A DNA stretch of 43,390 bases from a virus. Where the stretch lies: positions 1 to 43,390 of the IMG/VR virus record IMGVR_UViG_3300014501_000029. One strand, given 5' to 3'. The notes below the pieces were generated by a model. It was not told where the DNA came from. It ran no database searches and worked only from the letters and a program-made list of their open reading frames with translations. The position numbers were made by a program, and so were the translations under genes. Below, in pieces: positions 1,626-43,390 of this stretch. The number at the start of each line of letters is the position of its first letter. Positions within the stretch are counted from its first letter, which is position 1.

Positions 1626-4600
1626 CTATACTCCTTGATTGGTTCTTATTGCTGAACGAACAACGTGTATTCGATTCTCAGGTGGAACAGTGAAGGTAAA
1701 GAATGGCACGAAAGGCATACCACCAAGAATGACACCAGTAGTATTTCCCAACGTTACATTGATCGACCCGTACATGGGTTGATTGCCTTGGAAGTTAGCT
1801 GTCGTGTTACCAAGCGTTGAAGCTATGTTTCCGGTGTTTAATCCCCCACCAGTGAAATTCGCAATCGTATTGGCAAGGGTTGAGGCAATCGTACCATTAG
1901 CTGAACCATGACCCTGAAAGTTAGCAGTCGTGTTACCAAGCGTTGAGGCTACTGAACCATCATTACCTACCAAGCCGTTAACTGCTGCAGTAGTGTTAGC
2001 CAGCGTTGAAACTACATGCCCACTAACAACTCCTCCACCATTGAATGCTGCTGTCGCTGGTTGAAGCGTTGATGCTATGCTCCCGTAATACGTGCGACCC
2101 TGGAAGTTAGCAGTCGTGTTACCGAGGGTAGAGTTAATCGTTCCGCTGAATGTCTCATTAGCTTGGATATTAGACGTCGTGTTGCCTAGCGTGACTACCA
2201 GATAGCCTATGTTACCCACAAGACCATGGAAGGCTGCTGTCGTGTTTCCAAGCGTCTCAGTAATGGACCCTGAGAATGTTTCCTTGCCTTGGAAGTTAGC
2301 AGTAGCAGGTTGGAGCGTTTCGTTGATGGTCCCACTGAACATACCACCGCCTAGGAATACAGCAGTAGCAGGTTGGAGCGTTTCAGTAATAGATCCACTG
2401 AACTTCTCGTTACTCTGAATGTTAGCTGTCGTATCGCCCAGCGTTACATTGATTGTCCCGTTGTAGTTATAACCTTGGAAGTTAGCAGTAGCAGGTTGAA
2501 GCGTCGAGGCTAGAGCCACCTGCGTGATACTTGTGCCCTGGATGTTGGACGTTGTGTTGCCCAACTGTGAAGCAATGGAACCATCGTTACCAAGAAGACC
2601 ACTACTAACTATCGTGGTGTTCGCCAGCGTTGAAGCTATAGAACCACTATAGTTAAAGCCTTGGAAAGCACCGAGTGTTGGATCTAGCGTTGAAGCGATA
2701 GTACCCGTGAATTGCTGCGTAGCCTGAATGTTAGCTGTTGTGTTAGAAAGTGTTGATGCTAAGGTTGCTGTAAGTGGGCCTGCTCCAGCGTTGTACCCAA
2801 TAAGGATAACGCCTTGACCACCAGTACCTGCACTACCAGTAGAACCAGCACCCGCCGCACCACCACCACCACCGTACAATCCGCCGTTTCCACCATTATC
2901 AAGGTAGCTACAACCACCACCACCACCACCACCACCTGTTATTCCATCAGCTAAGTCACTACCGTTACCACCGTTACCTCCATTCTGGGAAGTATAGTAG
3001 TTAGCGCCACCGCCACCACCACCATTAGTACCAGCACCTCCTGGTGTACTACTAGTACCTCCTATACCACCTCCAGTACCTAGGAAGTTGTTACCGCCTG
3101 CACCACCAACTACACTAGATGTGGTTCCACCGTTACTACCACCACCATTACCACCACCACCACCTGAGCCATAGGGATTTCCACCGTTGTTACCCCCATT
3201 ACCACCAGGACCGTTAGGACCACCTGCGCCACCACCACCCGAAGTCGATCCATCGTAAGTGCTAACGCCATAACCACCAGTACCGCCGTTGTTATGTAGA
3301 GAACCACCTGTACCACCTGTTCCGCCTACACCACCAGCCGCTCCTGAAGTTGAGGCTAATCCACCATTGGCAATAATGAGGCCGGAGTTGAAGTTAGTGT
3401 TACCACCATTTCCACCAGCACTACCGTGCGTAGCCGTACCAGCAGCACCTATAGAGTAAGGGATAACATTGCCGACGTAGTAACCAGAGAGGTTTATAGC
3501 TTGACGATACTCGCCACCGCCACCGCCACCGGTATTATTGTTACCACCACCCGCACCACCACCAATCAATTCTACTGAGGCTAAAGTACCCACGCAGTCA
3601 TTAGGTACAGTCCAGGAGCTACCTGAGGTAAGAACAACATACTTTACGGTTGTGCCACCCGATGAAGTACCACCACTGATATTAGAAGTAGTGTTAGCTA
3701 GTTGGGAAGCGAAGGTCGCTGTGAATGTTTCTACAGCTTGAAAGATAGCTGTCGTGTTACCCAACTGAGATACAAGGCTACCACCAGATCCACCAGTACC
3801 TAAGAAACTAGCAATTACCGGTTCAAGTGTTTCGTTGATAGTTCCAGTAGTGAATGAAGCTTGGAAGTTCGACGTTGCGGAATCAAGTGTTGATGCCAGG
3901 GTGCCTATGAACTGCTGGCTTGCTTGGAAATTCGATGTTGCTGGTTGAAGTGTTGAAGCGAGGGTTCCTGTGGTTCCACCAGTAACAGGAGTATATGCTA
4001 TGAGGATGATACCTTGGCCACCTGCATTACCAAGAGATTGTCCGCCCCCTGCGCCGCCACCATACAGACCGCCAGCACCACCGTTACCACTCCCACCACC
4101 CCCTCCTCCGCCCCCTCCGTGAACACCATCAGCTAGATCAGTACCATTGCCCCCTGCGCCGCCACTGCTACCGAAGCCGCCGGAACCACCACCGCCACCG
4201 TTGGTACCTGCACTCCCTGGAGCCGGTCCGGTGGTATCAGGTGCACCGCCACCAGTGCCTTGAAAGTTATTACCCCCTGCATTACCGTCGGCGCCGCCTG
4301 CGCTGCCCCCGCCATTGCCACCACCCCCGCCAGATGCCCCACCGGCTCCACTCCCTAAACCGCCAGCGCCACCTACCCCGTTAGGACCACCGGCGCCGCC
4401 ACCTCCGCCTCGAATATTACCGCCGGCTCCGCCGTTGTTATGTAGACTTCCGCCAGTACCTCCAGTGCCTCCAGTGCCGCCTACGCCTGCGTTGAATACT
4501 CCAGCCTTGCCTCCTTTAGCCAGTATAGTGCTCGAGTTCCAATTGGTATCACCTCCGTTACCCCCTGCTACTCCGACACCTGCAGCGCCCCCTACACCCA

Positions 4601-12038: not shown

Positions 12039-13328
12039 TTAGGTTCGCGCTAGTGTTAGTTCTTTCTTATCTATGCAGCAGAGAATACCGTAGCAGAAGG
12101 TATCAAGTAAGTCATCTGCGCGTTTAGACGCATCTTTATCACCTAGACGAAAGGTCGTAACCTGCGTTAATTGGTGATTCTGTACTTTCTTCTTAAACTC
12201 CTGCTGCTTATGGTACGCATACTCACTAAAGCGTACTTTACCTAGATAAGCATATGATGAAATTGCCATTGCACGAGCATCTTTACCCATTGCAGTGAAG
12301 GCTGAGGGGATCGAAGATACAGGGAGACTTAAATCACGACACTGCTGGAGAAGGATACTACCAGATGCTTTATCTTCAATGAATACTCTTGGGATACCAA
12401 TATCCTGTTGTACTGCACCACATTGTCGTGCTAAGGCTGCAACACGTTGATGCACAGTAGGTAACCAGTTAATAAGTGATCCACCTTGAATCTGATGTAG
12501 TTCCCAATCGATGAGGACAAGAGGTGGCTTAGAAGTATCATACATATTACGTGCGAAGTACGAAACACCTGTGCCATCATGCTGTACACCATCTTTAATA
12601 GCAGAATCTATGATCGCCACAACATAATCACAACGGACAGGATCAGCTACGAATGGTTGAAGCTGGATGATTGCTGTACCCGACCAATCAATGAACTGTG
12701 CACCATATTCTTGACCGAATGCTTCCGGTAATTCTGTTCGCTGTAGATCTGCTAGCTCTTCCTTAGACATCTCAGGATTATCTGAAGTAGGAGCATAATA
12801 CTCTGTGAATCCATACTTCGGATTAGTACACACTTGGTAGAAGAAATTCTCTTCATCAACGCCATTAGGTGTAGAGAATACGAAGGCACGACCTCTATAG
12901 TCCAAGAGCGTTGGTTTAATGGCAAGTCGCCATATATCCATCATGTCTGGACCGTTGAAAGCCGTTTCATCGAGCAAGACGACATGGTATTTACGACCTC
13001 GTCCTGCTCTCTTGTTGTGATCCAGTGACCAAGTGTCTACATGCCCACCATTGATAGTTCTAATCGCACCTTGACCGGAATTACTGGACTTGATGATTGG
13101 ATCTAGGTGTGTAGCGATTGAAGTAAACTGTTCGCTAACTGTCTTGTACGTTGGTGCGAAGATGCCAGCACGCATACCATTCGATGCATAAGATGCTGCT
13201 ATTGTTTCCAAGGTGAATGACTTGCCCCAGCGGCGACCACAACGAACGGCGGTGAAACGTGTAGATTGTTGAAGCATTCGCTGCTGACCTTGGTGTAGGA
13301 CAGGTAGTTGAATTCGTTTATCACTCAT
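12039..13328 (-). CDS. terL: Terminase large subunit
   Basis: A 429-residue packaging motor and nuclease. The ATPase domain shows Walker A RCGRRWGKS at 29-37, Walker B HVVLLDETA with D120 and E121, and coupling motif FVFSTPNG near 150. The RNase H-like nuclease domain shows acidic residues D241 (IIDSAIKDG), E318/D319 (FIEDKASG) and D405/D406 (RADDLLDTFCYG). It overlaps the small subunit gene by 4 bases (ATGA). The motor would translocate DNA into the prohead and cut it. The packaging mode (headful or cohesive) cannot be told from the sequence alone. Confidence 0.92.
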   Translation of the reverse strand: MSDKRIQLPVLHQGQQRMLQQSTRFTAVRCGRRWGKSFTLETIAASYASNGMRAGIFAPTYKTVSEQFTSIATHLDPIIKSSNSGQGAIRTINGGHVDTWSLDHNKRAGRGRKYHVVLLDETAFNGPDMMDIWRLAIKPTLLDYRGRAFVFSTPNGVDEENFFYQVCTNPKYGFTEYYAPTSDNPEMSKEELADLQRTELPEAFGQEYGAQFIDWSGTAIIQLQPFVADPVRCDYVVAIIDSAIKDGVQHDGTGVSYFARNMYDTSKPPLVLIDWELHQIQGGSLINWLPTVHQRVAALARQCGAVQQDIGIPRVFIEDKASGSILLQQCRDLSLPVSSIPSAFTAMGKDARAMAISSYAYLGKVRFSEYAYHKQQEFKKKVQNHQLTQVTTFRLGDKDASKRADDLLDTFCYGILCCIDKKELTLART

Positions 13329-14230: not shown

Positions 14231-14933
14231 GATAAGCTCGGAGGATAGGGGACAACGACCAACTTAACTTCTGATCTTCGGAAGCACGGGTAAGGGCCGT
14301 GCAAGCAACAGCGGTTGCATCAACCTGTTGCTCTGTGTATTCCTGGAACTTCTCATACACATCTTGAAGATCAATAAGATTAGCCTTGGCGTACTTCGTC
14401 TTCCAAGACTGGGCGGTCGTTGTGAATAACGGCATAGGACGCTGAACTTGTATCTCTTTCAGGTCTTGAGTAGGTTTAGGCAATTCATAGTGGGCGACTG
14501 GTATCTGTGAGAGAATCCCTAGCATCGCATTGCAACATTCCATCGTAACTACAGAGTGTGGACCTACTTGTTGGTAGCGTTCAACCGCTAGCGCATCGAC
14601 AGAGAAGCGTTCAGTTAATTCAACCACTTCCTTGGTGAAGGCCCATGACTGTTCGTTAAGCTGTGAGAAGTCGGAGATCGTGTGTTCTACGTGGGCAACA
14701 TGGAGCACCTGGAATTGATGCTTCATGACCTTGAAGAAACCTGAGCGGCGGATGAATCGACGAAGCACACGGAGCTCAACAACTGAGAGGCCGCATCGGT
14801 CCACACCTAAATCAAGTGCGAGAACACGATGCGAGGTCTCAATCGGAACTTCAGGTAGTATTTCATCGTCCATTGCTACATGCTTCAGGTTCTGATTACT
14901 CTTCCTCCTCGATTGTGGAGCTACTTTCATCAT
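14190..14933 (-). CDS. RuvC-like Holliday junction resolvase
   Basis: A 247-residue nuclease of the RNase H/RuvC fold. The acidic active-site pattern is visible: ALDLGVDRCG with D41, DALAVERYQ with E118, and QQVDATAVACTAL with D205. A RuvC-like TAQSWKTKYAK stretch lies near 173-183. It lies first in the packaging operon, just after a terminator, and overlaps terS by 41 bases. The likely job is resolving branched replicative DNA before packaging, as T4 gp49 and T7 gp3 do. The first of two adjacent ATGs at 14933 follows GAGGTAA. The N-terminal ~35 residues are probably disordered. Confidence 0.8.
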   Translation of the reverse strand: MMKVAPQSRRKSNQNLKHVAMDDEILPEVPIETSHRVLALDLGVDRCGLSVVELRVLRRFIRRSGFFKVMKHQFQVLHVAHVEHTISDFSQLNEQSWAFTKEVVELTERFSVDALAVERYQQVGPHSVVTMECCNAMLGILSQIPVAHYELPKPTQDLKEIQVQRPMPLFTTTAQSWKTKYAKANLIDLQDVYEKFQEYTEQQVDATAVACTALTRASEDQKLSWSLSPILRAYHDKERSTNCRRQA

Positions 14934-14944
14934 TTACCTCTAAT

Positions 14945-14993
14945 AAAAAAGATGGTGGACCCCATTGGAGATTTACAGAGAATTGGTCCACCA
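14945..14993 (-). terminator. Rho-independent terminator after the lipase gene
   Basis: The arms 14985-14993 and 14953-14961 form a perfect 9-bp stem (GGTCCACCA/TGGTGGACC) with a 23-base loop. On the minus strand the stem is followed by TCTTTTTTATT. This should end transcription of the 17435-15010 gene group. The RuvC gene starts inside the T-run side, so packaging genes need read-through or their own promoter. Confidence 0.75.
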
Positions 14994-15009: not shown

Positions 15010-15726
15010 TTAGTTGTTAAGTGCGATTAGGCGCTGGATGATTGTAGTGAGCGAATGATCTGGTTCCCACAATCCAAGGGGCCATTGAGAGGGAGTGATC
15101 ACCTCGTAGCCTGTCTTATGAAGCCACAAGACTTCTTGGTTAGCATGGACCCATTCGCCAAGGTGAGGATAACCATAGAAGATATCCGCACCATTCACTA
15201 CATTGATTGCGCTCTTGAAGATGTCTGCGTAGAATTCCCAATACTTGGCATTCGCACCCTTGGGAGCTTCGAACGTTACGAGCTGACCAATACGCTTAGG
15301 GTCGAGAAACAATGGAGTGTACAGGGTACGCCACCCACCTAGACTGTGACCTTCTACGTTGAATACAGTGGCGGCAGGTACCATTGATAGCGCCCAGTCC
15401 CACATGACGTCTAGGCCGTGATACGCACCTTCTGTTGCCTTCATACCTACATGAGGAGCACCAACTGAAACAGCAACGGTGAAAGCGTCATCAAGTAGGT
15501 CTGCGAATGCACCTTGGGAGAAACGCGTTCCACTGATAGAAAGGTAGACTGCACCTTGGGAATCCCGTGAGAGTACAGCTTGATGATCTTGATTCTGATA
15601 CTGACCAATAAACATCTGGCCTAGATTCTGAAATTGAAGGGCAGCAGAAGTAGCGTCTTCAGTGTAAGCTGCGTTCGCACGTTCTGCTGCTGCAAGGATC
15701 AACTTGAAGTCAGTAAGGCTAGTCAT
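15010..15726 (-). CDS. Class 3-type lipase (alpha/beta hydrolase)
   Basis: A 238-residue protein with a lipase fold. The nucleophile elbow GHSLGG at 126-131 gives catalytic S128, D181 (VVNGADIFYGYP) fits the acid and H224 (EPDHSLTT) the base. SISGTRFS at 63-70 fits the oxyanion strand. The start chosen is the ATG at 15726 after CGGAGATTTACA; an upstream in-frame ATG at 15744 lacks such a site. There is no signal peptide. It is the last gene of a group encoding exported proteins and lipoproteins, which hints at envelope disruption during lysis. The substrate is unknown. Confidence 0.75.
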   Translation of the reverse strand: MTSLTDFKLILAAAERANAAYTEDATSAALQFQNLGQMFIGQYQNQDHQAVLSRDSQGAVYLSISGTRFSQGAFADLLDDAFTVAVSVGAPHVGMKATEGAYHGLDVMWDWALSMVPAATVFNVEGHSLGGWRTLYTPLFLDPKRIGQLVTFEAPKGANAKYWEFYADIFKSAINVVNGADIFYGYPHLGEWVHANQEVLWLHKTGYEVITPSQWPLGLWEPDHSLTTIIQRLIALNN

Positions 15727-15757: not shown

Positions 15758-16339
15758 TTATTTAACAGTCGATGCCAAGGTAGAAGGAGCCGGCACCACT
15801 ACTGCTGCAGGTACACCGTTCACCGTAACCGTTGTCGAAACCGGTGCACCAGTTGCTGCCTGCATCGCCGATACTTGAGCAACGAGTGCAGTCAAGATCG
15901 GATACGCCATCGTCATCCCCAAGATAATACCAGATTTAGTCGCGGTTGGAATAGTGCTATCCTGGATGATAGTGAGGAGGGTAGGGTAGGCAGTAGAGTT
16001 GAAGGATTGGAGACTGGAGATATTAAGAGTTGTAGCGCCACTACATACCGCATTGACTTCAGGGGTAACTGGATTCTGAAGGAGTAAAGTTTCGCTGGCG
16101 TTAAGGACGCCCGGAAGTCCCAATGCGCTGATTGCAGCTTGAACAGAAGGACAGATTGAGGTTGCAAGTACAGCGGGACTAGGCAACACCGTGAGCGAAG
16201 GCAACGGAATCGGCAACTTAATAGCTGGTACCGAGGTCGTTGCAGTTACACCAGGAGTCGTCGGAGCTGCTGTCGGAAATGCACATGCACCAAGGGAGGC
16301 CACAAGAACTAAGGGGGCGATACATTTAAAGAGGTTCAT
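15758..16339 (-). CDS. Lipoprotein, proline-rich N-terminal region
   Basis: A 193-residue protein with a type II signal peptide: MNLFKCIAPLVLVASLGAC, lipobox SLGAC at about 15-19. A Pro/Thr/Val-rich stretch follows, then a helical region. The start at 16339 is preferred to an upstream in-frame ATG because it places the signal peptide correctly and avoids overlap with the preceding gene. It is expected in the outer or inner membrane leaflet. By place it could take part in lysis (an o-spanin-like role) but it is longer than usual o-spanins and shows no family match I can name. Confidence 0.7.
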   Translation of the reverse strand: MNLFKCIAPLVLVASLGACAFPTAAPTTPGVTATTSVPAIKLPIPLPSLTVLPSPAVLATSICPSVQAAISALGLPGVLNASETLLLQNPVTPEVNAVCSGATTLNISSLQSFNSTAYPTLLTIIQDSTIPTATKSGIILGMTMAYPILTALVAQVSAMQAATGAPVSTTVTVNGVPAAVVVPAPSTLASTVK

Positions 16340-16346
16340 AAATATC

Positions 16347-16757
16347 TCATTTAGGAAGTTGAACAACAGGAGTCAGTAAGGCTGTTACCGCACTTAACGT
16401 TGATACAGGTGCACTTGCTACTACGGTTGCTGGTGCGAACTGTGCGGCTGCGTTAGCACTAGCTACTACTGCTGAGGAAACTGAAGAAACACCAACGGTA
16501 GCTGCAGTGATAGACTTCGACGATACTACACCATCTTCAGTGAAGTCGACAACCATCGAACCATCAGTGGATCTCGCAATATGAGCAACCATCGACTTCA
16601 CATTCTTACCTGAGGTGACAGTTGCTTCACAACACACTTCGACCTTCGCTACTGGATCGTAGAAAGGCTTCACATCATAACGCGCTATACCTGCGTAGAG
16701 ATTAACGCAACCAGCAAGTGGAGTAACCATCAGTAAGGCTAAAGCTGAATACTTCAT
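16347..16757 (-). CDS. Lipoprotein of unknown function
   Basis: A 136-residue protein with a clear lipoprotein signal: MKYSALALLMVTPLAGC, lipobox PLAGC. The mature part has a CC pair (VEVCCEATV), a beta-rich domain, then a long Ala/Val/Ser tail. It overlaps the upstream membrane-protein gene by 4 bases (ATGA) and precedes the second lipoprotein by 7 bases, so the four genes form one translationally coupled group. A spanin or superinfection-exclusion role is possible; the sequence does not decide. Confidence 0.7.
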   Translation of the reverse strand: MKYSALALLMVTPLAGCVNLYAGIARYDVKPFYDPVAKVEVCCEATVTSGKNVKSMVAHIARSTDGSMVVDFTEDGVVSSKSITAATVGVSSVSSAVVASANAAAQFAPATVVASAPVSTLSAVTALLTPVVQLPK

Positions 16758-17926: not shown

Positions 17927-20311
17927 ATGAATAAGAACGCGACCCTAATGCAGATCTACAATACATCCATTCCCGTTACTCTTGGTACGCAAGAGGTCAC
18001 ACGGATTGATTACGTGAACGCTCTCCCAGGTGCGGGTAAGACGCATCAGTTCCTGAAGGCAGCGGTAAATCACGTTAAGAACAAGCAATCTAATTCCGTA
18101 CTTGTGTACGCAGCACCGACGAAGATTCTGTTAGATCAGGTTTCCACTGACCTGACGATGAAAGCTAATATCAGTAAAGACAAGATTAAGCAGATCACTG
18201 CTGAAGAGGGAACAGGTCGCGTGCAAGATCGTTTCCACGACGCACTCTTAGGTGACTTGGCAGTTGCAGACGGAACTATCCTGTTGGTTACACATGAATG
18301 TATAGCGAAGGTTCCCATGCTAATGGAAGGTAAGAGGCGTGTGACTCTGGTCTATGATGAAGCACGCGCATGTCTTCAAGATAATTACTCGTTGAATCTC
18401 CCGGAGAACGTGTATGACTTCTTTCTAAATCCGAAGTTGGCGCATGAAACCCGAGACGGCAGGAAATTCAGAGGTGCTCTGATTCAACCAGTAGTATCAA
18501 TGGAAGTTGGTGAAGGATCGCGATTAGAAGTGTGGAAGTGGCAGAATCCGGGTATTGAATTTCCTAGCCAGCAGTTCATCGAATCTCTTCTTCCCGATTC
18601 TACACAGAAGAGAACGCAAGCACAGCGCATTCATGAATTCCTAGAGAACGTGCATTCGTCCTCGATTGATGTTTATGTATCGGTCACCAAGAAGACGAAC
18701 AAGCCCTACTACGAAGTGAACAACGTATTCTCACCGACACGTATGTTCTACAGCTATGGCAAGGTATTGATCCTTTCAGCATTCTTCGATTCCTCGCAGA
18801 TGTACCACTTCCTAACTAACCCGTGCGTTGATCCTGAATTTCCGGTTAACCTGAACAGACTGAATAATTATATCGATCCGAAGCGCATGAAGAACATTAT
18901 CAATCGATTGAAGAACGTGCAACTTACATACGTGTTCGACTTCGGTGATAGGGAATTGACGAAGACGCAGATGGTAGAGGGACTAGTAGTTAAGGGTCAA
19001 CTAAATACGAAAGTTGCTAATGATCTGGCTAGTGATTGGAAAGCATCATTCGGGAAGAATCGTGTTCATACATATCGCTCGGTACAAGGTGTTCAAGAGA
19101 ATAGCGCGACTGCAATGGTGGAACAGTTCAACAATGTAGACCTCTCGAAACAATTCAAGTTGATGGACAAGTATCACTTCGAAGATATCATCAGCAACTC
19201 GTCGGTTGTTCGTTATATGGTTCAGCGTTCATTGGATCTTCAGAAGGCTTGGTTCAAGAAGAATAACTTGGCAGCAGAAGCATTGCCAATCGGTGTCAAT
19301 GCAAGTTTCCGGTCGCAGTCTAATCCCAAGGTTACACATCCGCTGTGGATCAAGGAGAACATCAACGGATTCAATAAGATGAAGAAGATGTATGAACCAG
19401 ATGCGAAGGGTAACATCATTCGTAAACTTCCGATGGTATCTCATGGTCTGAACAGGTGGAAACTGTGTCACTCTGCTGCATTCCTCGCAACCATGAAGTA
19501 CAGCCCGAACGAAACTCGATTCTTGAAATCCAGCGTTCCTTCTTATGATCCTTCGATTGATCGTACAGTTGATTATGCAATTCAAGTTCTGTTCCGTTCC
19601 AATGTTCGCATGGCAGATTCTAAAGATCCGTGTCTGTTGATCGTTACTGACAAGGCAATCGCTAATGCAATTCATAAACGGTTCCAGACGATTCTTGCTG
19701 AGAACGAATCCATGAAGGCTCGAGTTCTTAGTATCGTATCTCCCGACCTTATCATGGCGAAGTATCAGTTCGATTCGATTCTGTCGTATTCAACTCCGTA
19801 TGATAAGGAAGTGCAGAAGGCAGCGAACGGAAAGTATCAAGAGACCGACAATGGACAACTCAATCTGCAACTCAAGAAACTTTATGATAAGAGCGAACAC
19901 GGAGCACGTTATAGTTCCTTGACTACTCGTATCGGTCAGCTCAAGAAGCAGGGCGAAGACGTGAATGATCTTAAAGAAGAACGGTCTAACCTTATGTCAT
20001 TGGCACAATGGAAGAAGAGCGCAGAAGGCATAGCGACACTGAAGAAGTTGACGGCTCCTGTTAAATCGATGCAGCATAAGTTGCTGACAGTTCTCAATGA
20101 TTCACGTTTCTGGTCTGGTGATCGGGCTAAGCGACTTCCTCATGTCTTAGCGGCGAAGTGTGCGGGCATCCAACGTGAAGCTATCACGGCTTATCCTTCC
20201 GGTGATGGTCATCCGCCGATTAAGAACTGGAACGATAAGGAGTGGAAGGGGCATTGTACACCTGAGCAATTTATTCTTTCGCGTGCGAAAGCACTTAACA
20301 TTCAATTCTAA
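17927..20311 (+). CDS. SF2-like helicase/translocase, DEAR box
   Basis: A 794-residue NTP-dependent DNA or RNA enzyme. Walker A NALPGAGKT ends at 39, motif Ia VYAAPTKILLDQV is near 60-72, ILLVTHE near 118, and Walker B LVYDEARA has D144-E145-A-R in place of DEAD/DEAH. Near 550 QVLFRSNVR fits motif VI (arginine finger) and CLLIVTD follows. The region between about 180 and 540 is long and not recognised. The start follows TAGGAG. It is the first gene of the rightward arm and the only replication-type protein in the genome, so it probably opens phage DNA for the host replisome. Confidence 0.75.
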   Translation: MNKNATLMQIYNTSIPVTLGTQEVTRIDYVNALPGAGKTHQFLKAAVNHVKNKQSNSVLVYAAPTKILLDQVSTDLTMKANISKDKIKQITAEEGTGRVQDRFHDALLGDLAVADGTILLVTHECIAKVPMLMEGKRRVTLVYDEARACLQDNYSLNLPENVYDFFLNPKLAHETRDGRKFRGALIQPVVSMEVGEGSRLEVWKWQNPGIEFPSQQFIESLLPDSTQKRTQAQRIHEFLENVHSSSIDVYVSVTKKTNKPYYEVNNVFSPTRMFYSYGKVLILSAFFDSSQMYHFLTNPCVDPEFPVNLNRLNNYIDPKRMKNIINRLKNVQLTYVFDFGDRELTKTQMVEGLVVKGQLNTKVANDLASDWKASFGKNRVHTYRSVQGVQENSATAMVEQFNNVDLSKQFKLMDKYHFEDIISNSSVVRYMVQRSLDLQKAWFKKNNLAAEALPIGVNASFRSQSNPKVTHPLWIKENINGFNKMKKMYEPDAKGNIIRKLPMVSHGLNRWKLCHSAAFLATMKYSPNETRFLKSSVPSYDPSIDRTVDYAIQVLFRSNVRMADSKDPCLLIVTDKAIANAIHKRFQTILAENESMKARVLSIVSPDLIMAKYQFDSILSYSTPYDKEVQKAANGKYQETDNGQLNLQLKKLYDKSEHGARYSSLTTRIGQLKKQGEDVNDLKEERSNLMSLAQWKKSAEGIATLKKLTAPVKSMQHKLLTVLNDSRFWSGDRAKRLPHVLAAKCAGIQREAITAYPSGDGHPPIKNWNDKEWKGHCTPEQFILSRAKALNIQF

Positions 20312-21970: not shown

Positions 21971-22204
21971 ATGAGACATAGCAACACTGAACGTAAACAG
22001 TTGGCTACCGCTGAAGCGCTGGCAACCATCATGAAGTTCATCAAGGATCATCGTAAAGAGATCGAACGTATCGAGAGCATTACCCTTGGTTATACAATCG
22101 ATTCCAACATGAAGAAGGATCTGGCTTATCATAGAGCGCAACTTCAGATTCTGCTTTCGGCATTTAAGCTTGAGCTGGTGGGAGTCCAACATGGAGAACG
22201 ATAA
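21971..22204 (+). CDS. Hypothetical helical protein
   Basis: A 77-residue charged, helical protein (TIMKFIKDHRKEIERIESITLG, then MKKDLAYHRAQLQILLSAFKLEL). The ATG at 21971 follows GGAGACTAAG; longer in-frame reading would overlap the preceding gene by 90 bases. Its end overlaps the following gene by 14 bases. The function is unknown. Confidence 0.6.
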   Translation: MRHSNTERKQLATAEALATIMKFIKDHRKEIERIESITLGYTIDSNMKKDLAYHRAQLQILLSAFKLELVGVQHGER

Positions 22205-22760
22205 TGACTATGGTGTTTCTAATCCTAGCAATAGTGATAGCATTCCTGATAGCGAAGGTGATCGGGTTCCTGTTCAGAATCCTACTTCTACTTATGCTAG
22301 TGGCGGGAATAATGGCGTACATATCCGCCTACACACACTGGTAGACGCTAACGGTAATCGTAGCCAAGAATTCTACGGCGGTGGAGGTGGCGGGGCTAGT
22401 ATGAGCCATGAAGATACTGTAGCCAACGGTGCTCCTAGTATCGGCGGTAGTGGTAGATTCACTCCAATCAGTCCTTGGGTATCAGGCGGTGGTTCATCAG
22501 ACGACGAAGCACGACTTCATGGTGGTGGATATCCCGTTACCTACTCGGATGCTGGCACACGCGCTAAGCAACTCGAAGATGCACTTGCTGAAGTCGAGCA
22601 TTATAAACAAGCATTGGAGTATGCTGTGAACTGGCAGGCACGTGAAGTACGAACACTTGTGCACCAGAAGCTACACGATGTAGAAGGTTACGAGGTCATT
22701 AAGCGCAACAGATTGCAGCTAGATGTACTGAAGGCATTTCAACTTAAGACTAAGGAATAA
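22191..22760 (+). CDS. Hypothetical protein with Gly/Ser-rich region
   Basis: A 189-residue protein. The start at 22191 follows GGGAGTCCAAC. Residues about 1-125 are low-complexity (Ser, Asn, Gly; FYGGGGGGASMS), and residues about 127-189 form a coiled-coil-like helix (AKQLEDALAEVEHYKQALEYAV). The long disordered part is unusual for an early phage protein. There is no known domain. Confidence 0.6.
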   Translation: MENDNDYGVSNPSNSDSIPDSEGDRVPVQNPTSTYASGGNNGVHIRLHTLVDANGNRSQEFYGGGGGGASMSHEDTVANGAPSIGGSGRFTPISPWVSGGGSSDDEARLHGGGYPVTYSDAGTRAKQLEDALAEVEHYKQALEYAVNWQAREVRTLVHQKLHDVEGYEVIKRNRLQLDVLKAFQLKTKE

Positions 22761-24466: not shown

Positions 24467-24709
24467 ATGACTAAAGTATATGAAGATCCAGCAGTACAAG
24501 GCGCGCTCGTTAACTTCAGTGAAGTGCTGCTTCGAATGATGAAGGTAGGCGTAGACTGCAACGCCGCGAATGCTTACCAGCAGGATCTATTGCCCGACGA
24601 GTACAAGGATATCATTGCTCGCCTTGATAAGGTAAGCGCAGAGTACGAAACTTCAATCATGCTACTTCAAGAAACAATCGTAGCTTTCACTAAATCTAAC
24701 AAGGAATAA
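24467..24709 (+). CDS. Small hypothetical protein
   Basis: An 80-residue helical protein (VYEDPAVQGALVNFSEVLLRMM...). It starts on the base after the previous stop (TAAATG), so it is coupled to it. There is no recognisable domain. Confidence 0.55.
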   Translation: MTKVYEDPAVQGALVNFSEVLLRMMKVGVDCNAANAYQQDLLPDEYKDIIARLDKVSAEYETSIMLLQETIVAFTKSNKE

Positions 24710-24712
24710 ATC

Positions 24713-24979
24713 ATGACGACGTGGGCAACGATGGACACAGCACCGAAGGATCACCAGATCGTGATTCAGCACAATTCAGGAAAGCACGCAGTAGCACACT
24801 GGTATGAAGCAACAGCACAAGCATGCTGCGGATTCTACTGTATCGATGGTGATACCCTTACCCTGCTGGATAACGAAGAGCTCTGGTCAGAGCCAATCAT
24901 GGCAATTTCCGGCGGTATCAATATGGATGTAAACCGTCAGATCGTCGATGTAGCCGATCTTCAGGTCATCCCTGAATAG
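24713..24979 (+). CDS. Hypothetical protein (DUF551-like N-terminus)
   Basis: An 88-residue protein beginning TTWATMDTAPKDHQIVIQ, the W-x-x-M-D-T-A-P-K-D motif of small phage proteins of the DUF551 kind, with a CC pair (AQACCGFYC). The leader is AAGGAATAAATC. It is followed by a hairpin at 24990. The function of this family is not known. Confidence 0.6.
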   Translation: MTTWATMDTAPKDHQIVIQHNSGKHAVAHWYEATAQACCGFYCIDGDTLTLLDNEELWSEPIMAISGGINMDVNRQIVDVADLQVIPE

Positions 24980-25376: not shown

Positions 25377-25482
25377 GTAGCCAACAGTAGACAGATACAG
25401 AAGAATTCAGAAACCTTACAATTGTAATGCAGTAAATTTACATTGTTATATTTACACTTAACAAGTATCTGGTAAATAGTTG

Positions 25483-25511
25483 TTGACTGTAAATACAGCA
25501 TGCTTTATTAT
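25483..25511 (+). promoter_or_regulatory. Tandem promoter 1 (TTGACT-17-TATTAT)
   Basis: The -35 TTGACT at 25483-25488 and the -10 TATTAT at 25506-25511 are separated by 17 bases. Five bases later CTAGCAAG begins, which is shared with promoter 2 and fits the expected start of transcription. Confidence 0.7.
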
Positions 25512-25583
25512 TGAGTCTAGCAAGTGAGGCAAGAAGGGCAGGAAAGAAACGAGTTAATAACAAGTCTGGATAGTAAATAAGTG

Positions 25584-25612
25584 TTGACGGACAGGAGATA
25601 ACAAGTTAAACT
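25584..25612 (+). promoter_or_regulatory. Tandem promoter 2 (TTGACG-17-TAAACT)
   Basis: The same geometry as promoter 1: -35 at 25584-25589, 17 bases, -10 at 25607-25612, 5 bases, then CTAGCAAGTGAGG. The -10 is weaker. The 10 bases before it (GTAAATAAGT) resemble those before promoters 1 and 3. Confidence 0.55.
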
Positions 25613-25673
25613 AGAATCTAGCAAGTGAGGAAAGAAGTAAATAAGGTTAGAAACACTGAGATGTAAATAGTTG

Positions 25674-25702
25674 TTGACTGATAGAAACGAACAAGATAGA
25701 AT
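25674..25702 (+). promoter_or_regulatory. Tandem promoter 3 (TTGACT-17-TAGAAT)
   Basis: The -35 TTGACT at 25674-25679 and -10 TAGAAT at 25697-25702 are 17 bases apart; CTAGTAAG follows 5 bases later. It is close to consensus. It is the nearest of the three to the gene at 26024, giving a leader of about 310 bases. Confidence 0.7.
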
Positions 25703-25771
25703 GTAGTCTAGTAAGAAAGAAAGGCAGGAAACGAAATAAGTGCGGAATAACCGCGAAACACGGAAAGATTC

Positions 25772-25832
25772 AGAGAATCGACCGAGACTGTAACCCGCGA
25801 TCTTTAACAATTCGAATGATTGACGATTCTCT
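25772..25832 (+). promoter_or_regulatory. boxA-like antitermination element inside an inverted repeat
   Basis: GATCTTTAACAA at 25799-25810 differs at two positions from the rRNA operon boxA (GCTCTTTAACAA with its first base) that binds NusB-S10. It is enclosed by a perfect 9-bp inverted repeat, AGAGAATCG (25772-25780) and CGATTCTCT (25824-25832). It lies downstream of the promoters, as in rrn leaders. Confidence 0.5.
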
Positions 25833-25857
25833 AAATAAGAATTAACCCTTCCCAAGG

Positions 25858-25961
25858 TAGCCTTACTGAGTTTCACATAGCAACACTGATAGCCTTACTG
25901 AGAAATTAGCCTTACTGATAGCGGTATTGATAGCCTGACTGAGTTGGTTAGCAACATTGAG
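25858..25961 (+). repeat. Array of seven 13-bp repeats, TAGCCTTACTGA(G/T)
   Basis: Copies start at 25858, 25878, 25890, 25907, 25919, 25931 and 25949. Three are exact (TAGCCTTACTGA); the others vary in the middle (TAGCAACACTGA, TAGCGGTATTGA, TAGCCTGACTGA, TAGCAACATTGA). Spacing is 12, 17-18 or 20 bases. It sits between the boxA-like element and the ribosome site of the gene at 26024. Options are protein-binding sites on DNA (iterons or operators) or on the leader RNA. Confidence 0.7.
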
Positions 25962-26023
25962 ACTTACCGATAAACGGGGTACAGAAAGCCCCACCTACTA
26001 AACTTGGGAATTGGAGATTTACG

Positions 26024-26470
26024 ATGAAACAGAGAACGGCATACAACGGATTGGTCAAGATCGATACCAACGGCAAGCGCCTCGTAACCGATCATGCTAA
26101 ATCAATCTGGAAGGACATGGAAGTTAAAGGTCGCTTCATGTTGGTAACAGCACCGATTCACTTCAAGCCAGTATCGGGTGGGTATGTGTTGTTATTCAGT
26201 GTGTTAGATCAGATGGGACATGCGCATCAATCGAACATTATGATTGGTGACGTCAATCGAATGGTGGAAGATCAATGCCGAATTATTCGATGCAAGCCTG
26301 CAGATTTAAAGAATACGGAAGACTATAGCTGGATGTTGAATAATCTAGTCGGACGGGTCTTACGGTATTCGATACACGATAGCAGATGGATTCGGCCGGT
26401 AATGAGTCAGCCCGAACCCCTCGGATTGAATAGATTCATTGAGCAGTATAAAGACAACATTGCAGCCTAA
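26024..26470 (+). CDS. Hypothetical protein, first gene after the complex leader
   Basis: A 148-residue protein of unknown function with an alternating strand/helix pattern (GRFMLVTAPIHFKPVSGGYVLLFSVLDQ) and a Cys pair region (QCRIIRCKPAD). The leader is TTGGAGATTTACG. As first gene of the run driven by the three tandem promoters it is likely to be made early and in quantity. It could be a regulator of its own leader; nothing in the sequence proves that. Confidence 0.6.
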   Translation: MKQRTAYNGLVKIDTNGKRLVTDHAKSIWKDMEVKGRFMLVTAPIHFKPVSGGYVLLFSVLDQMGHAHQSNIMIGDVNRMVEDQCRIIRCKPADLKNTEDYSWMLNNLVGRVLRYSIHDSRWIRPVMSQPEPLGLNRFIEQYKDNIAA

Positions 26471-27341: not shown

Positions 27342-27869
27342 ATGACCGAAATTCAAGAATTGAATATGCAAGTAGCACAACTGAAATCATATCTGGTTAC
27401 ACTAGCGGAGCATCAGATCCATGACCAAGCGCGACTTGCAAGCCTTGAAGCGAAGAATGCAGGACTTGTCGAAACGATTGGGAAGCAACAAGCCGAGCTC
27501 CAAGCGATCCGGGAAGGCGTGGACGCAGACAAGATGATGCAAGGTAACATGAATTCGATGCTGTGGGATTATACGAATGATGTATCGATGGCCTTTCACG
27601 CACAGCAGGATGAACAGTGGGTGGAAAGCGATGCGAAGTTGGACACGGCTTTAAACTTCACCGTAGCAGAGGAAATGAAGAAAGCGCTCATGGTTGAGGC
27701 AGAGGCAGAGGGTGTTTCGATCGGAGCGGTAGTTCGTCAGTGTGTGGTAAAGGCCCGGCCGAAGTTGCAGCAACATGCGGGACCTCGCAGTAAGACATGT
27801 AACGGTAAATCGAAGTTTAGTGGTGTATCGCTGGATGACTTAGTGTTGCTGCCACCAGAACGAGTGTAA
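27342..27869 (+). CDS. Coiled coil with probable ribbon-helix-helix domain
   Basis: A 175-residue protein. Residues about 3-65 form a coiled coil (MQVAQLKSYLVTLAEHQ, LEAKNAGLVETIGKQQ). Residues about 108-142 look like an RHH unit: a strand LNFTV, then helices AEEMKKALMVEAEAEG and SIGAVVRQCVVKA. The tail is basic then hydrophobic. This arrangement would give a multimeric DNA-binding regulator. The leader is ATTGGAGATTTACATC. I infer an early gene regulator; the operator is unknown. Confidence 0.6.
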   Translation: MTEIQELNMQVAQLKSYLVTLAEHQIHDQARLASLEAKNAGLVETIGKQQAELQAIREGVDADKMMQGNMNSMLWDYTNDVSMAFHAQQDEQWVESDAKLDTALNFTVAEEMKKALMVEAEAEGVSIGAVVRQCVVKARPKLQQHAGPRSKTCNGKSKFSGVSLDDLVLLPPERV

Positions 27870-28027: not shown

Positions 28028-28057
28028 GGGTGAATTCTGAATCAATAGAATTCACCC
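28028..28057. terminator. Shared hairpin between the convergent arms
   Basis: A perfect 11-bp stem (GGGTGAATTCT at 28028-28038, AGAATTCACCC at 28047-28057) with an 8-base loop lies between the last plus-strand gene and the last minus-strand gene. It has no long T run on either side (TGTCTGCTTT on the plus strand), so it is probably a bidirectional, perhaps partial, terminator. Confidence 0.65.
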
Positions 28058-28065
28058 TGTCTGCT

Positions 28066-29679
28066 TTAAGCCCCCGTGAATTGAACGAATGCCAATGCGT
28101 AGTACGGCGGTAATGTTGGAAGTGCAGCACCCCCGCCAGTATTAGCCGTTGTTATACCAGTAGCTGCAGCACTATTATAGACGCCCGTAAGAGCACCACT
28201 AAGATAAACACCAGTACCAGAAGCACTATTATAAATCCCAGTATCCGCAGCGTTGATATTAGCGTACTGTGCCTGAATACTCGCTCCTGTACCTGCTATC
28301 TCCGTCTGGTTATTGCTACCACTACCATAGTTGTAGGGACCATAGCCAGCACCTACCGCTAAACCTGACACTTGAACAGCACCGTTCTGGATAACGTGCG
28401 CGTGACCTGGGTCGATAAATCCATGACTGTGTACAGACTGACCATGATTATGACCTGGATCATTTATATAGTGGTTATGACCTGGATCATTCATATAGTG
28501 AGTATGACCTGGATCATTCATACCGTGATTATGACCTGGGTCGCTAACACCGTGACTGTGTGCAGGAAGGTTGCCGATAGCGATAACCGAAGTAGCTGCC
28601 CCACCCGTAGCGTTTCCTGCGTACAGATTACCCGCACCTATAACGAAACGATCCTCCAGATTTACTGTCCCTACTGTACCATTAGCAAGGTGCCAACCGA
28701 ATCCCCATGCCGCAGTAATCGCAGCTGCTAAGTTAGCATTCGTCGTACCAGTAGGTGGAGTCCACATACGAATTTCCCCTATAGCGAACGGGGGGTTATT
28801 CGGAACTGCAGCAATAAAGGCGGAACCTGTGTACATCATAATGTAGGTGGAACCAGCTTGGAACACACCGCCTACTAGTACCTGACCATTCTGAGCGAAT
28901 ACCGGAACTGCACCTAGTCCATTCACGTTGACAGTCGTACCTCCCGCTACGTTCGTGTTCGCTACCTTCACAATTAGAATCATTGCGGAGTAATAAGCAG
29001 CGAGTGGAACTGGCGTAGTAATGGTAACAACCGACGCCGTCACCGAAGAGTCTACTGCATAGAATGGAGCAATAGGTCGGTTAGTAACTACCCAGCGCGA
29101 GCCATCGTACATGAACTGATAGATGGTACCTGCAATCAATGCAGAGGGTACTACTGGTAGACCATCTTCACCCACTACTTGAATAGCACCGAAGTTATTC
29201 AATGCCAAGGTAACGGCAGTCGTGTTAGAAGACAGGACCTTAACGCGAGCAATTAGACCTGAGACGAGTGCCGTAGGGGCAGGATTAAGAGATGCCGTGA
29301 TAGCATTCCCCGTACCTGCACCTACTGCGAAGTTCATACCACCTGCTTGTACCTGAGCAATCTGAGTTAAGTTAGTAAACTCACCTGACGTGAAGAAGTT
29401 ACCAGCAGTGTCCCCTGCTAACCACGCGAGGGCTGCCGTTCCTTCCTGCGCTCGAAGTACAGTAAACGTATCGGTAGAAGTAGCCGTTACGTACATAATC
29501 TCGCGCTTGGCTCCAGTGGCAGCATCAACCATTGTCAGCCGGAATTGCGAGTTACCTACAGAGGGAACAGGAAAGAGAGCACCCGTACCCCCTACTACAG
29601 AGAGAGAAGTTGAGGTAGGAGTGATAGCCCCCGCCAAGGTTGTAGAAGCGTTATTAGCAGCTAGAAATGTAAGAGCCAT
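28066..29679 (-). CDS. Tail fibre with collar domain and histidine array
   Basis: A 537-residue protein, the last gene of the late arm. The N-terminal part (about 1-110) has a typical fibre adaptor plan (REIMYVTATSTDTFTVLRAQ), the middle has beta repeats, and about 325-375 is a tail-collar domain (GWHLANGTVGTVNLEDRF, then GNLPAHSHG). Next come seven HxH motifs over about 60 residues with repeats of the type NDPGHNHYIN. Such HxH sets bind metal ions in T4 gp37-like needle shafts. It should be the receptor-contacting fibre, and is a determinant of host range. Confidence 0.75.
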   Translation of the reverse strand: MALTFLAANNASTTLAGAITPTSTSLSVVGGTGALFPVPSVGNSQFRLTMVDAATGAKREIMYVTATSTDTFTVLRAQEGTAALAWLAGDTAGNFFTSGEFTNLTQIAQVQAGGMNFAVGAGTGNAITASLNPAPTALVSGLIARVKVLSSNTTAVTLALNNFGAIQVVGEDGLPVVPSALIAGTIYQFMYDGSRWVVTNRPIAPFYAVDSSVTASVVTITTPVPLAAYYSAMILIVKVANTNVAGGTTVNVNGLGAVPVFAQNGQVLVGGVFQAGSTYIMMYTGSAFIAAVPNNPPFAIGEIRMWTPPTGTTNANLAAAITAAWGFGWHLANGTVGTVNLEDRFVIGAGNLYAGNATGGAATSVIAIGNLPAHSHGVSDPGHNHGMNDPGHTHYMNDPGHNHYINDPGHNHGQSVHSHGFIDPGHAHVIQNGAVQVSGLAVGAGYGPYNYGSGSNNQTEIAGTGASIQAQYANINAADTGIYNSASGTGVYLSGALTGVYNSAAATGITTANTGGGAALPTLPPYYALAFVQFTGA

Positions 29680-32693: not shown

Positions 32694-33143
32694 ATGGAAC
32701 TTAACCTTGGTGTTGTAGATCAACTCTATGAGAATGGCGAATCGACAGCGAAGGTCGCACGCGTACTAGAAGACAAGTATGGAATCATGCAGACCTTCGT
32801 GGATAATAACCTGCAGTTCATCGCTGATCAACTTGCGAACTCAGTCGCTGATAACTTGGAGACTATACTAGGTAGCGGTCAGAAGTTAGGGGCTGATACC
32901 AACCTGTTCACTCAAGGTACGAATAACATTGAGCAGGCTTTCCGTGAATTTCTAGATCGTAACGGTACGGGTATCGTAACTCAAGCATCTACTCAGGGTA
33001 CCAGTGGACGCTTCAAGGATGAAGGAAACAAGAAGAAGAAACGTAAGAAAGATCCACGACTACTTGAGGGACAAGTTCGCCCCTCGTTCGTTGCTACCGG
33101 TCTTTATCAAGCCTCCTCTAAAGTATGGACTAACGAGGACTAA
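32694..33143 (+). CDS. Lone plus-strand protein in the tail cluster
   Basis: A 149-residue protein of unknown function on the strand opposite to its neighbours. GGAGGGCGT precedes the ATG. The N-terminus (NLGVVDQLYENGESTAKVARVLEDKYG) may hold a helix-turn-helix-like unit (ESTAKVARVLEDKYGI), the middle is helical, and the C-terminal third is very basic (KKKKRKKDPRLLEG). Its stop overlaps by 4 bases the stop of the hub gene coming the other way. A moron, regulator or antitoxin-type gene is possible. Confidence 0.65.
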   Translation: MELNLGVVDQLYENGESTAKVARVLEDKYGIMQTFVDNNLQFIADQLANSVADNLETILGSGQKLGADTNLFTQGTNNIEQAFREFLDRNGTGIVTQASTQGTSGRFKDEGNKKKKRKKDPRLLEGQVRPSFVATGLYQASSKVWTNED

Positions 33144-42923: not shown

Positions 42924-43390
42924 TTAACGCCCAATTGCGAAACAGGAAATCATCATGGTTACGGCCTGACGTGCATCGGCTCCACCACGTGCTTCTTTCT
43001 TATTCCAGAAGGGACCCTCCGTTGCACCATGACCGATAGACGCTAAGGACCCAACATAATTAGCAGGGAGAGCCCATGCTATGGCGCAACAGTCTGTGAA
43101 CTCTTTAGGGAACGTCCACACGAATGGCGTGGTAACTCCACCAGAAGCAACATCCACCTTGATGGTTTCCCATTGCAGCATGAAGCCCGTCTCTTCATCT
43201 ATGTAGTGACCGGGATTCTCTGCTAGGAAGGAATTAGCCTTACGTGCGAGGACAGTTGGATTAGGTAGTACTTGAACCAACTGGGGCTTCTGTACTACCG
43301 GAACAACTGGAGCAGGGGCTACTACACTAGGGGCAGGAACTTCAACCAGCGTATGAATCTCACGAACTTCCGTTGTATGAATTTCCGTAA
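42924..43390 (-). CDS. 3' part of the gp53-like virion protein gene
   Basis: This continues the gene whose 5' part lies at 1-202; the bases 43268-43390 repeat 1-123. The complete product has 181 residues. The C-terminal domain (GFMLQWETIKVDVASGGVTT, then FPKEFTDCCAIAWALP and ending MMISCFAIGR) has the plan of the gp53-like fibre-tip domain: LQWG-type strand, FP-x-x-F, and a final AIG strand. It could be a small receptor-binding or decoration protein. Certainty is moderate because the match is short. Confidence 0.65.
   Translation of the reverse strand, partial: TEIHTTEVREIHTLVEVPAPSVVAPAPVVPVVQKPQLVQVLPNPTVLARKANSFLAENPGHYIDEETGFMLQWETIKVDVASGGVTTPFVWTFPKEFTDCCAIAWALPANYVGSLASIGHGATEGPFWNKKEARGGADARQAVTMMISCFAIGR
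43268..43390. repeat. Terminal direct repeat, right copy
   Basis: Identical to bases 1-123. Merging the two copies gives a circle of 43,267 bp and restores the reading frame of the gp53-like gene with no change. Confidence 0.95.

Follow-up and report, generated by a model that had tools for sequence, protein, structure and literature searches.

A seven-unit array of a two-part motif in an early leader of a contractile-tailed phage, with single copies near the starts of other genes

Ahead of a gene in the early region of IMG/VR virus record IMGVR_UViG_3300014501_000029 lies a cluster of seven short repeats, and the question that it raises is what the repeats are and whether they are read as DNA or as RNA. 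Here, we report an analysis of the array, of its surroundings, and of the same motif elsewhere in the window (the whole stretch of DNA analysed, 43,390 nucleotides, positions 1 to 43,390 of the record).

The phage was contractile tailed (tail sheath, baseplate, portal, terminase, and capsid families were recognised), with structural genes on the minus strand. The plus strand carried an early-type block (17.9 to 27.9 kb) whose small genes were mostly orphans and which was headed by a helicase-like gene (phrog_2467, DEAD). The 794-aa DEAD-helicase-like protein encoded there (17927 to 20311) had only remote (~22%) relatives, in the Burkholderia jumbo phages BcepSaruman and BcepSauron. Because the first 124 bases are repeated at the end (direct terminal repeat, 1 to 124 and 43267 to 43390), the record can probably be read as one circular map, complete at ~43,266 bp. 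Cumulative GC skew had its minimum at 13076 and its maximum at 33051, almost exactly half a genome apart and not at strand-switch points, a sign that replication may proceed in both directions from about 13 kb. A strong 12-bp terminator-like hairpin (28028 to 28057) separated the convergent early and late operons, and coding low-complexity repeats occurred in tail fibre-like genes (2859 to 3564 and 28448 to 28530; GGT/GGC runs and repeated PGH motifs).

No plausible gene was found between 25377 and 26023, and the array stood in this leader, behind promoter-like repeats. The features were as follows.

25472 to 25511, plus strand: promoter-like unit 1, GTAAATAGTTGTTGACTG, TTGACT-17-TATTAT (consensus match only)
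25573 to 25612, plus strand: promoter-like unit 2, TTGACG-17-TAAACT, 101 bp 3' of unit 1
25648 to 25659, plus strand: degenerate eighth unit of the motif, TAGAAACACTGA, between promoter-like units 2 and 3
25663 to 25702, plus strand: promoter-like unit 3, GTAAATAGTTGTTGACTG, TTGACT-17-TAGAAT, 90 bp 3' of unit 2
25772 to 25832, plus strand: predicted stem-loop in which AGAGAATCG (25772 to 25780) pairs with CGATTCTCT (25824 to 25832)
25799 to 25809, plus strand: boxA-like element GATCTTTAACA, one mismatch to GYTCTTTAANA
25849 to 26010, plus strand: 8-nt inverted repeat around the array, TTCCCAAG at 25849 and CTTGGGAA at 26003
25858 to 25960, plus strand: seven-unit array (pattern matches), consensus TAGC-NNN-A(C/T)TGA
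26013 to 26022, plus strand: GGAGATTTAC, Shine-Dalgarno module of the gene that follows the array, a 10-mer that recurs before several others
26024 to 26470, plus strand: first gene after the array, 148 aa, without recognisable family

Seven non-overlapping plus-strand matches to TAGCNNNAYTGA started at 25858, 25878, 25890, 25907, 25919, 25931, and 25949, with start-to-start spacings of 20, 12, 17, 12, 12, and 18, which bears out the 12 to 20 given in a preliminary description made from the letters alone. That description had presented seven copies of a single sequence; there are seven units, but exact TAGCCTTACTGA was found in only three (25858, 25890, and 25907), the unit at 25931 had one mismatch to it, and the other three had only TAGC....A(C/T)TGA in common. 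The base 3' of the consensus was G or T in all seven, and each unit contained, as had been claimed, both TAG and TGA, nine bases apart and hence in one frame. Within the 647-nt leader, the seven matches compare with 0.0087 expected (maximum of 1 in 20,000 first-order simulations); the whole window held 13 consensus matches versus 0.97 expected. The array is confirmed as real and non-coding, far above chance. The last unit ended 63 nt 5' of the ATG at 26024.

Ordinary explanations were considered for the array. A coding sequence, raised in the preliminary description as a possible undoing of the array, was checked and rejected, because units spaced by 20 and 17 cannot share one reading frame, and stops were present; a reverse-strand open reading frame (25517 to 25876) overlapped only the first unit. 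Neutral decay of tandem copies was rejected as well, since changes were confined mostly to three columns: measured against the commonest unit, 9 of 11 differences were in the middle three columns (P ≤ 0.0013), and the spacers were unrelated in sequence and length. Coding, chance, and neutral tandem repetition are excluded as explanations. With the middle three bases variable and the flanks almost fixed, the units have the pattern of a two-part recognition site that selection would have kept, rather than that of decaying tandem copies. The array RNA folded no better than shuffles (z = +0.49; folding covered the array), neither RNA nor DNA folding found structure within the array, and folding gave no boxB-like or stable hairpin there. 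A search of Rfam found nothing that reached a gathering score (the best match, RAGATH-33, was weak, with E 0.042, far under cutoff). The 8-nt inverted repeat that brackets the array may be due to chance; its CTTGGGAA arm adjoins the Shine-Dalgarno sequence of the 26024 gene.

The promoter-like units consist of GTAAATAGTTGTTGACTG followed 17 bases on by a -10-like hexamer, with TCTAGCAAGTGAGG also present. A generic promoter scan was at chance level (23 found versus 23.0 expected), so the support for three promoters is the repeated 90- to 101-bp context alone; a scan with the promoter-unit 18-mer returned one match, in an unrelated fragment without an array. The predicted 9-bp stem (z, -1.70; 9 of 200 shuffles fold as well) encloses the boxA-like element, which lies 48 nt 5' of the array. 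The sequence at 25799 is GATCTTTAACAATT, within which TCTTTAACAATT, 12 nt, is identical to the Escherichia coli rrnB boxA region. The boxA consensus used, GYTCTTTAANA, is gammaproteobacterial (PMC5725501), and the one-mismatch pattern had 10 matches in the window versus 5.3 expected, which makes the boxA-like element suggestive only. The triplet of promoter-like units (25472 to 25702) ahead of the boxA-like element is laid out like the tandem promoters of rRNA operons. The Shine-Dalgarno module GGAGATTTAC, often extended to TTGGAGATTTACA, recurred at 14967, 15737 (minus strand), 25060, 26013, 26487, 27329, and 37831 (minus strand).

The motif was also found in other messages, as single sites and in one looser tandem cluster.

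15710 to 15721, minus strand: exact single site TAGCCTTACTGA, nt 6 to 17 of the gene starting at 15726 (ATGACTAGCCTTACTGAC)
16373 to 16384, minus strand: CAGCCTTACTGA, exact 11-nt core, 45 nt 5' of the start codon at 16339
16730 to 16741, minus strand: exact single site TAGCCTTACTGA, nt 17 to 28 of the gene starting at 16757
20031 to 20042, plus strand: TAGCGACACTGA, within the helicase-like gene, sense strand
21979 to 21990, plus strand: TAGCAACACTGA, the same sequence as in the array unit that starts at 25878, nt 9 to 20 of the gene starting at 21971
22226 to 22261, plus strand: three 12-nt TAGCN5TGA units, one after another, close to where the gene at 22191 begins
27373 to 27384, plus strand: TAGCACAACTGA, nt 32 to 43 of the gene starting at 27342

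The core AGCCTTACTGA occurred three more times, each on the sense strand of the minus-strand operon (15710 to 15721, 16373 to 16384, and 16730 to 16741). Against nulls made by shuffles that preserve protein and codon usage, these three sense copies in coding sequence compare with 0.012 expected (0 of 3,000 shuffles; Poisson, ~3e-7), with no antisense copy in coding sequence. For the broader TAGCNNNAYTGA, genes held five sense matches (0.41 to 0.43 expected) and one antisense match (0.22 to 0.23 expected). Four genes (15726, 16757, 21971, and 27342) had a sense-strand TAGCNNNAYTGA within their first 52 nt, versus 0.12 to 0.15 expected (0 of 5,000; Poisson, ~1e-5). The sites are few, and these tests were framed after the first matches had been seen; the exact-core AGCCTTACTGA result depends least on post hoc choices. 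The start-proximal sites stand in two reading frames, where they encode S-x-T-D/E or A-x-L; the constraint is thus on nucleotides, and the proteins offer no explanation. Outside the leader, 9 of the 10 top hits of an array-derived matrix were sense, as was AGCNNNACTGA in 6 of 6 cases, a bias drawn from few sites in one genome, and column-permuted control matrices reached six start-proximal sense hits in only 5 of 2,000 trials. A specific recognition code that appears to be used across several genes of the phage is well supported by these counts, and the sense-strand, start-proximal recurrence favours recognition in RNA rather than a simple DNA operator or an array of iterons.

The tandem TAGCN5TGA units at 22226 are looser and coding (PSNSDSIPDSEGD) and may therefore be a peptide repeat. 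The sole antisense full-consensus site, TAGCATGATTGA, lies on the minus strand at 24653 to 24664, ~49 nt before the gene at 24713.

Relatives were sought for the motif, for the leader, and for the genes around it. In the collections searched, none were found for the leader or early genes, nor close ones for the 26024, RHH-like, and helicase proteins; the early helicase had no match in 54 IMG/VR records, in a search run without a positive control. Capsid and terminase relatives shared 41 to 57% identity (capsid up to 57%, terminase up to 48%) and were without the array, the consensus had no match in four named phages with related capsids, and in 50 IMG/VR records it was present as scattered single matches only. 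When viral and genome collections were scanned for the pattern, 15 and 104 stretches came back, and no comparable array was found among the 95 that were examined. Clustered hits were uniform-period tandem repeats or frame-preserving coding repeats (pentapeptide-like), and the few unevenly spaced clusters were near-identical local duplications, unlike the leader array. The product of the 26024 gene had no family and no homolog in searches, and its single-sequence structure prediction was unusable (pLDDT, 43). Family searches of the early proteins recognised no RegA homolog or other known RNA-binding repressor, and no known RNA-binding fold was found.

The preliminary description had placed the cluster within the predicted transcript and left DNA and RNA readings in competition, and both points hold. 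It had also named the products of 26024, 21455, and 27342 as candidate binders, and all three are still putative. Were the repeats bound as double-stranded DNA by a phage repressor, perhaps the RHH-like product of 21455 or 27342, that repressor would sit 3' of the three promoters and block or slow transcription, autoregulating the operon that contains 27342. This is the leading rival to an RNA reading, and both the binding and the circuit strike us as rather unlikely. Ribbon-helix-helix proteins bind direct repeats in DNA, and the encoding of two possible members counts against an RNA reading. The repeats are direct, non-palindromic, 12 bp long, and adjoin promoters, and 27342, with its weak RHH_1 match (E = 0.038), lies in the downstream operon and has its own site at nt 32. 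The units also show a weak helical phasing (R = 0.77 at ~10.2 bp; p ~0.009, post hoc), as expected of a DNA-bound array and again counter to an RNA reading. The units lie, however, ~150 to 480 bp 3' of the promoter-like units and not over them, the RHH assignments are sub-threshold (27342) or absent (21455, for which no family match was accepted and whose two-helix model matched no fold), and single sites at gene starts, sense only and in both operon orientations, are unexpected of operators. A replication origin or partition centromere, where the repeats would serve as iterons for a Rep or ParR-like protein, is improbable. Several irregular direct repeats do lie beside a region down to 28% GC, but family searches recognised no Rep, ParM, or ParA, DnaA-box matches numbered one versus 3.4 expected (the one, at 14421, far from the array), the GC-skew extremes lie at 13.1 and 33.1 kb and not at 25.9 kb, and single motif copies in coding sequence would go unexplained. 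The last three of these weaken the likeness to iterons that the preliminary description had drawn.

Two further readings keep recognition in the transcript. An antisense or small RNA containing UCAGUAAGGCUA, encoded by the host or transcribed antisense to the array, could pair with the sites and make the leader a sponge, and nearly all strong sites are indeed sense strand, the array is unstructured, and three units and three target sites have 11 nt in common, more than the general consensus requires. We give this a low probability, as four units vary freely at their three middle bases, a freedom that continuous pairing would preclude; moreover, the phage holds no complement of at least 9 bases except the opposite strands of the sites and one at 43243, and pairing with E. 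coli rRNA extends to 7 nt, no better than shuffles. Nut-like antitermination, with the array as the phage-specific part beside boxA on which a phage antiterminator loads, would account for the boxA-like element in a stem-loop 5' of the array and for the sense orientation, but it seems very improbable: the array has no boxB-like hairpin, the downstream operon runs for only ~1.9 kb before the terminator-like hairpin at 28028 and convergent genes, no N-like protein was recognised, one-mismatch boxA matches are themselves frequent in the window (10 versus 5.3 expected), and the start-proximal single copies would stay unexplained.

An unstructured array of two-part units behind promoter-like repeats, with sense, start-proximal recurrence of its motif, is consistent with sites read in RNA, and the suggestion of an RNA-binding array made in the preliminary description gains from the single copies and from the absence of structure, which tilt the balance toward RNA. 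The likeliest of the readings considered, quite possible although we stop short of calling it probable, is that the array consists of a regulator's RNA sites acting on translation. Triplicated promoters would drive strong early transcription of the leader, presenting the boxA-like element and then seven sites; the boxA-like element may recruit host NusB/NusE, and the seven sites would be bound by a sequence-specific regulator that reads UAGC-NNN-AYUGA in unstructured RNA. Once loaded on the leader, the regulator would control the translation, or the survival, of the 26024 message, and the same regulator would act on the single-site messages (15726, 16757, 21971, 27342, and perhaps 16339), with the seven-site leader as its most sensitive target and as a sink for free regulator. 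With the array ending 63 nt 5' of the start codon, a protein bound there would leave the ribosome site itself uncovered, a point against this reading. By inference, the reader would be a protein, for which the 26024 product, encoded directly downstream and then autoregulating, is the economical guess. Whether this amounts to an undescribed phage post-transcriptional regulon, in which an RNA-binding protein reads UAGC-N3-AYUGA at or inside several mRNA starts and the leader serves as autoregulatory sensor or sponge, is a more doubtful matter, which we place somewhat on the unlikely side.

Only a few model phages have furnished translational regulators that recognise specific sequences, and the sites of such regulators are seldom easy to spot. 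Here, in a phage with early genes that lack known relatives, a clear motif connects a leader array with named target genes, which could reveal a new family of RNA- or DNA-binding proteins among orphan phage genes, and motif arrays in leaders may be usable for finding regulon members within coding sequence.

Several known systems resemble this arrangement in part. CsrA sites centre on GGA, and CsrB and RsmZ are sponge RNAs; the present case is like theirs in having many sites in one RNA and single sites near target start codons, but GGA, which was searched for as a CsrB-like sponge feature, is absent from the array. TRAP leaders have UAG/GAG triplets every 4 to 5 nt. The array, too, offers eleven such triplets in unstructured leader RNA, but 7 to 12 nt apart, and no TRAP gene was recognised. 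As in rRNA operon and lambdoid nut leaders, a boxA-like element follows repeated promoter-like units (PMC5725501), but here it has one mismatch to the gamma consensus, lacks a boxB-like hairpin, and precedes an array of unrelated 12-mers. The nearest described sequence phenomenon is the TAACTGA heptamer repeats of Beggiatoaceae and others, exact 7-nt tandem units that stand as direct repeats, in Beggiatoaceae mostly forward and 5' of start codons, and for which a post-transcriptional regulator has been proposed (PMC4679880). The array shares with them direct repetition and, in most units, CTGA; it differs in its 12-nt two-part units and irregular spacing of 12 to 20, and TAACTGA itself is absent from the leader. 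Unstructured repeated elements 5' of a regulated gene recall the T4 gp32 leader operator, where gp32 nucleates on a pseudoknot and UUAA(A) repeats overlap the ribosome site (PMC3014915); the present array ends 63 nt before the AUG. The closest working parallel is T4 RegA, a phage repressor whose unstructured sites overlap the start codons of ~30 mRNAs (PMC3014915). Both phages have short sites (unstructured, in the present case, in the array) at or close to the starts of multiple phage messages, but those of RegA are rich in A+U, with a weak consensus, and either overlap the AUG or stand immediately 5' of it (PMC3014915), whereas the site found here has a fixed 12-nt, two-part form, in many cases falls within the beginning of the coding sequence, and is joined by a seven-copy leader array.
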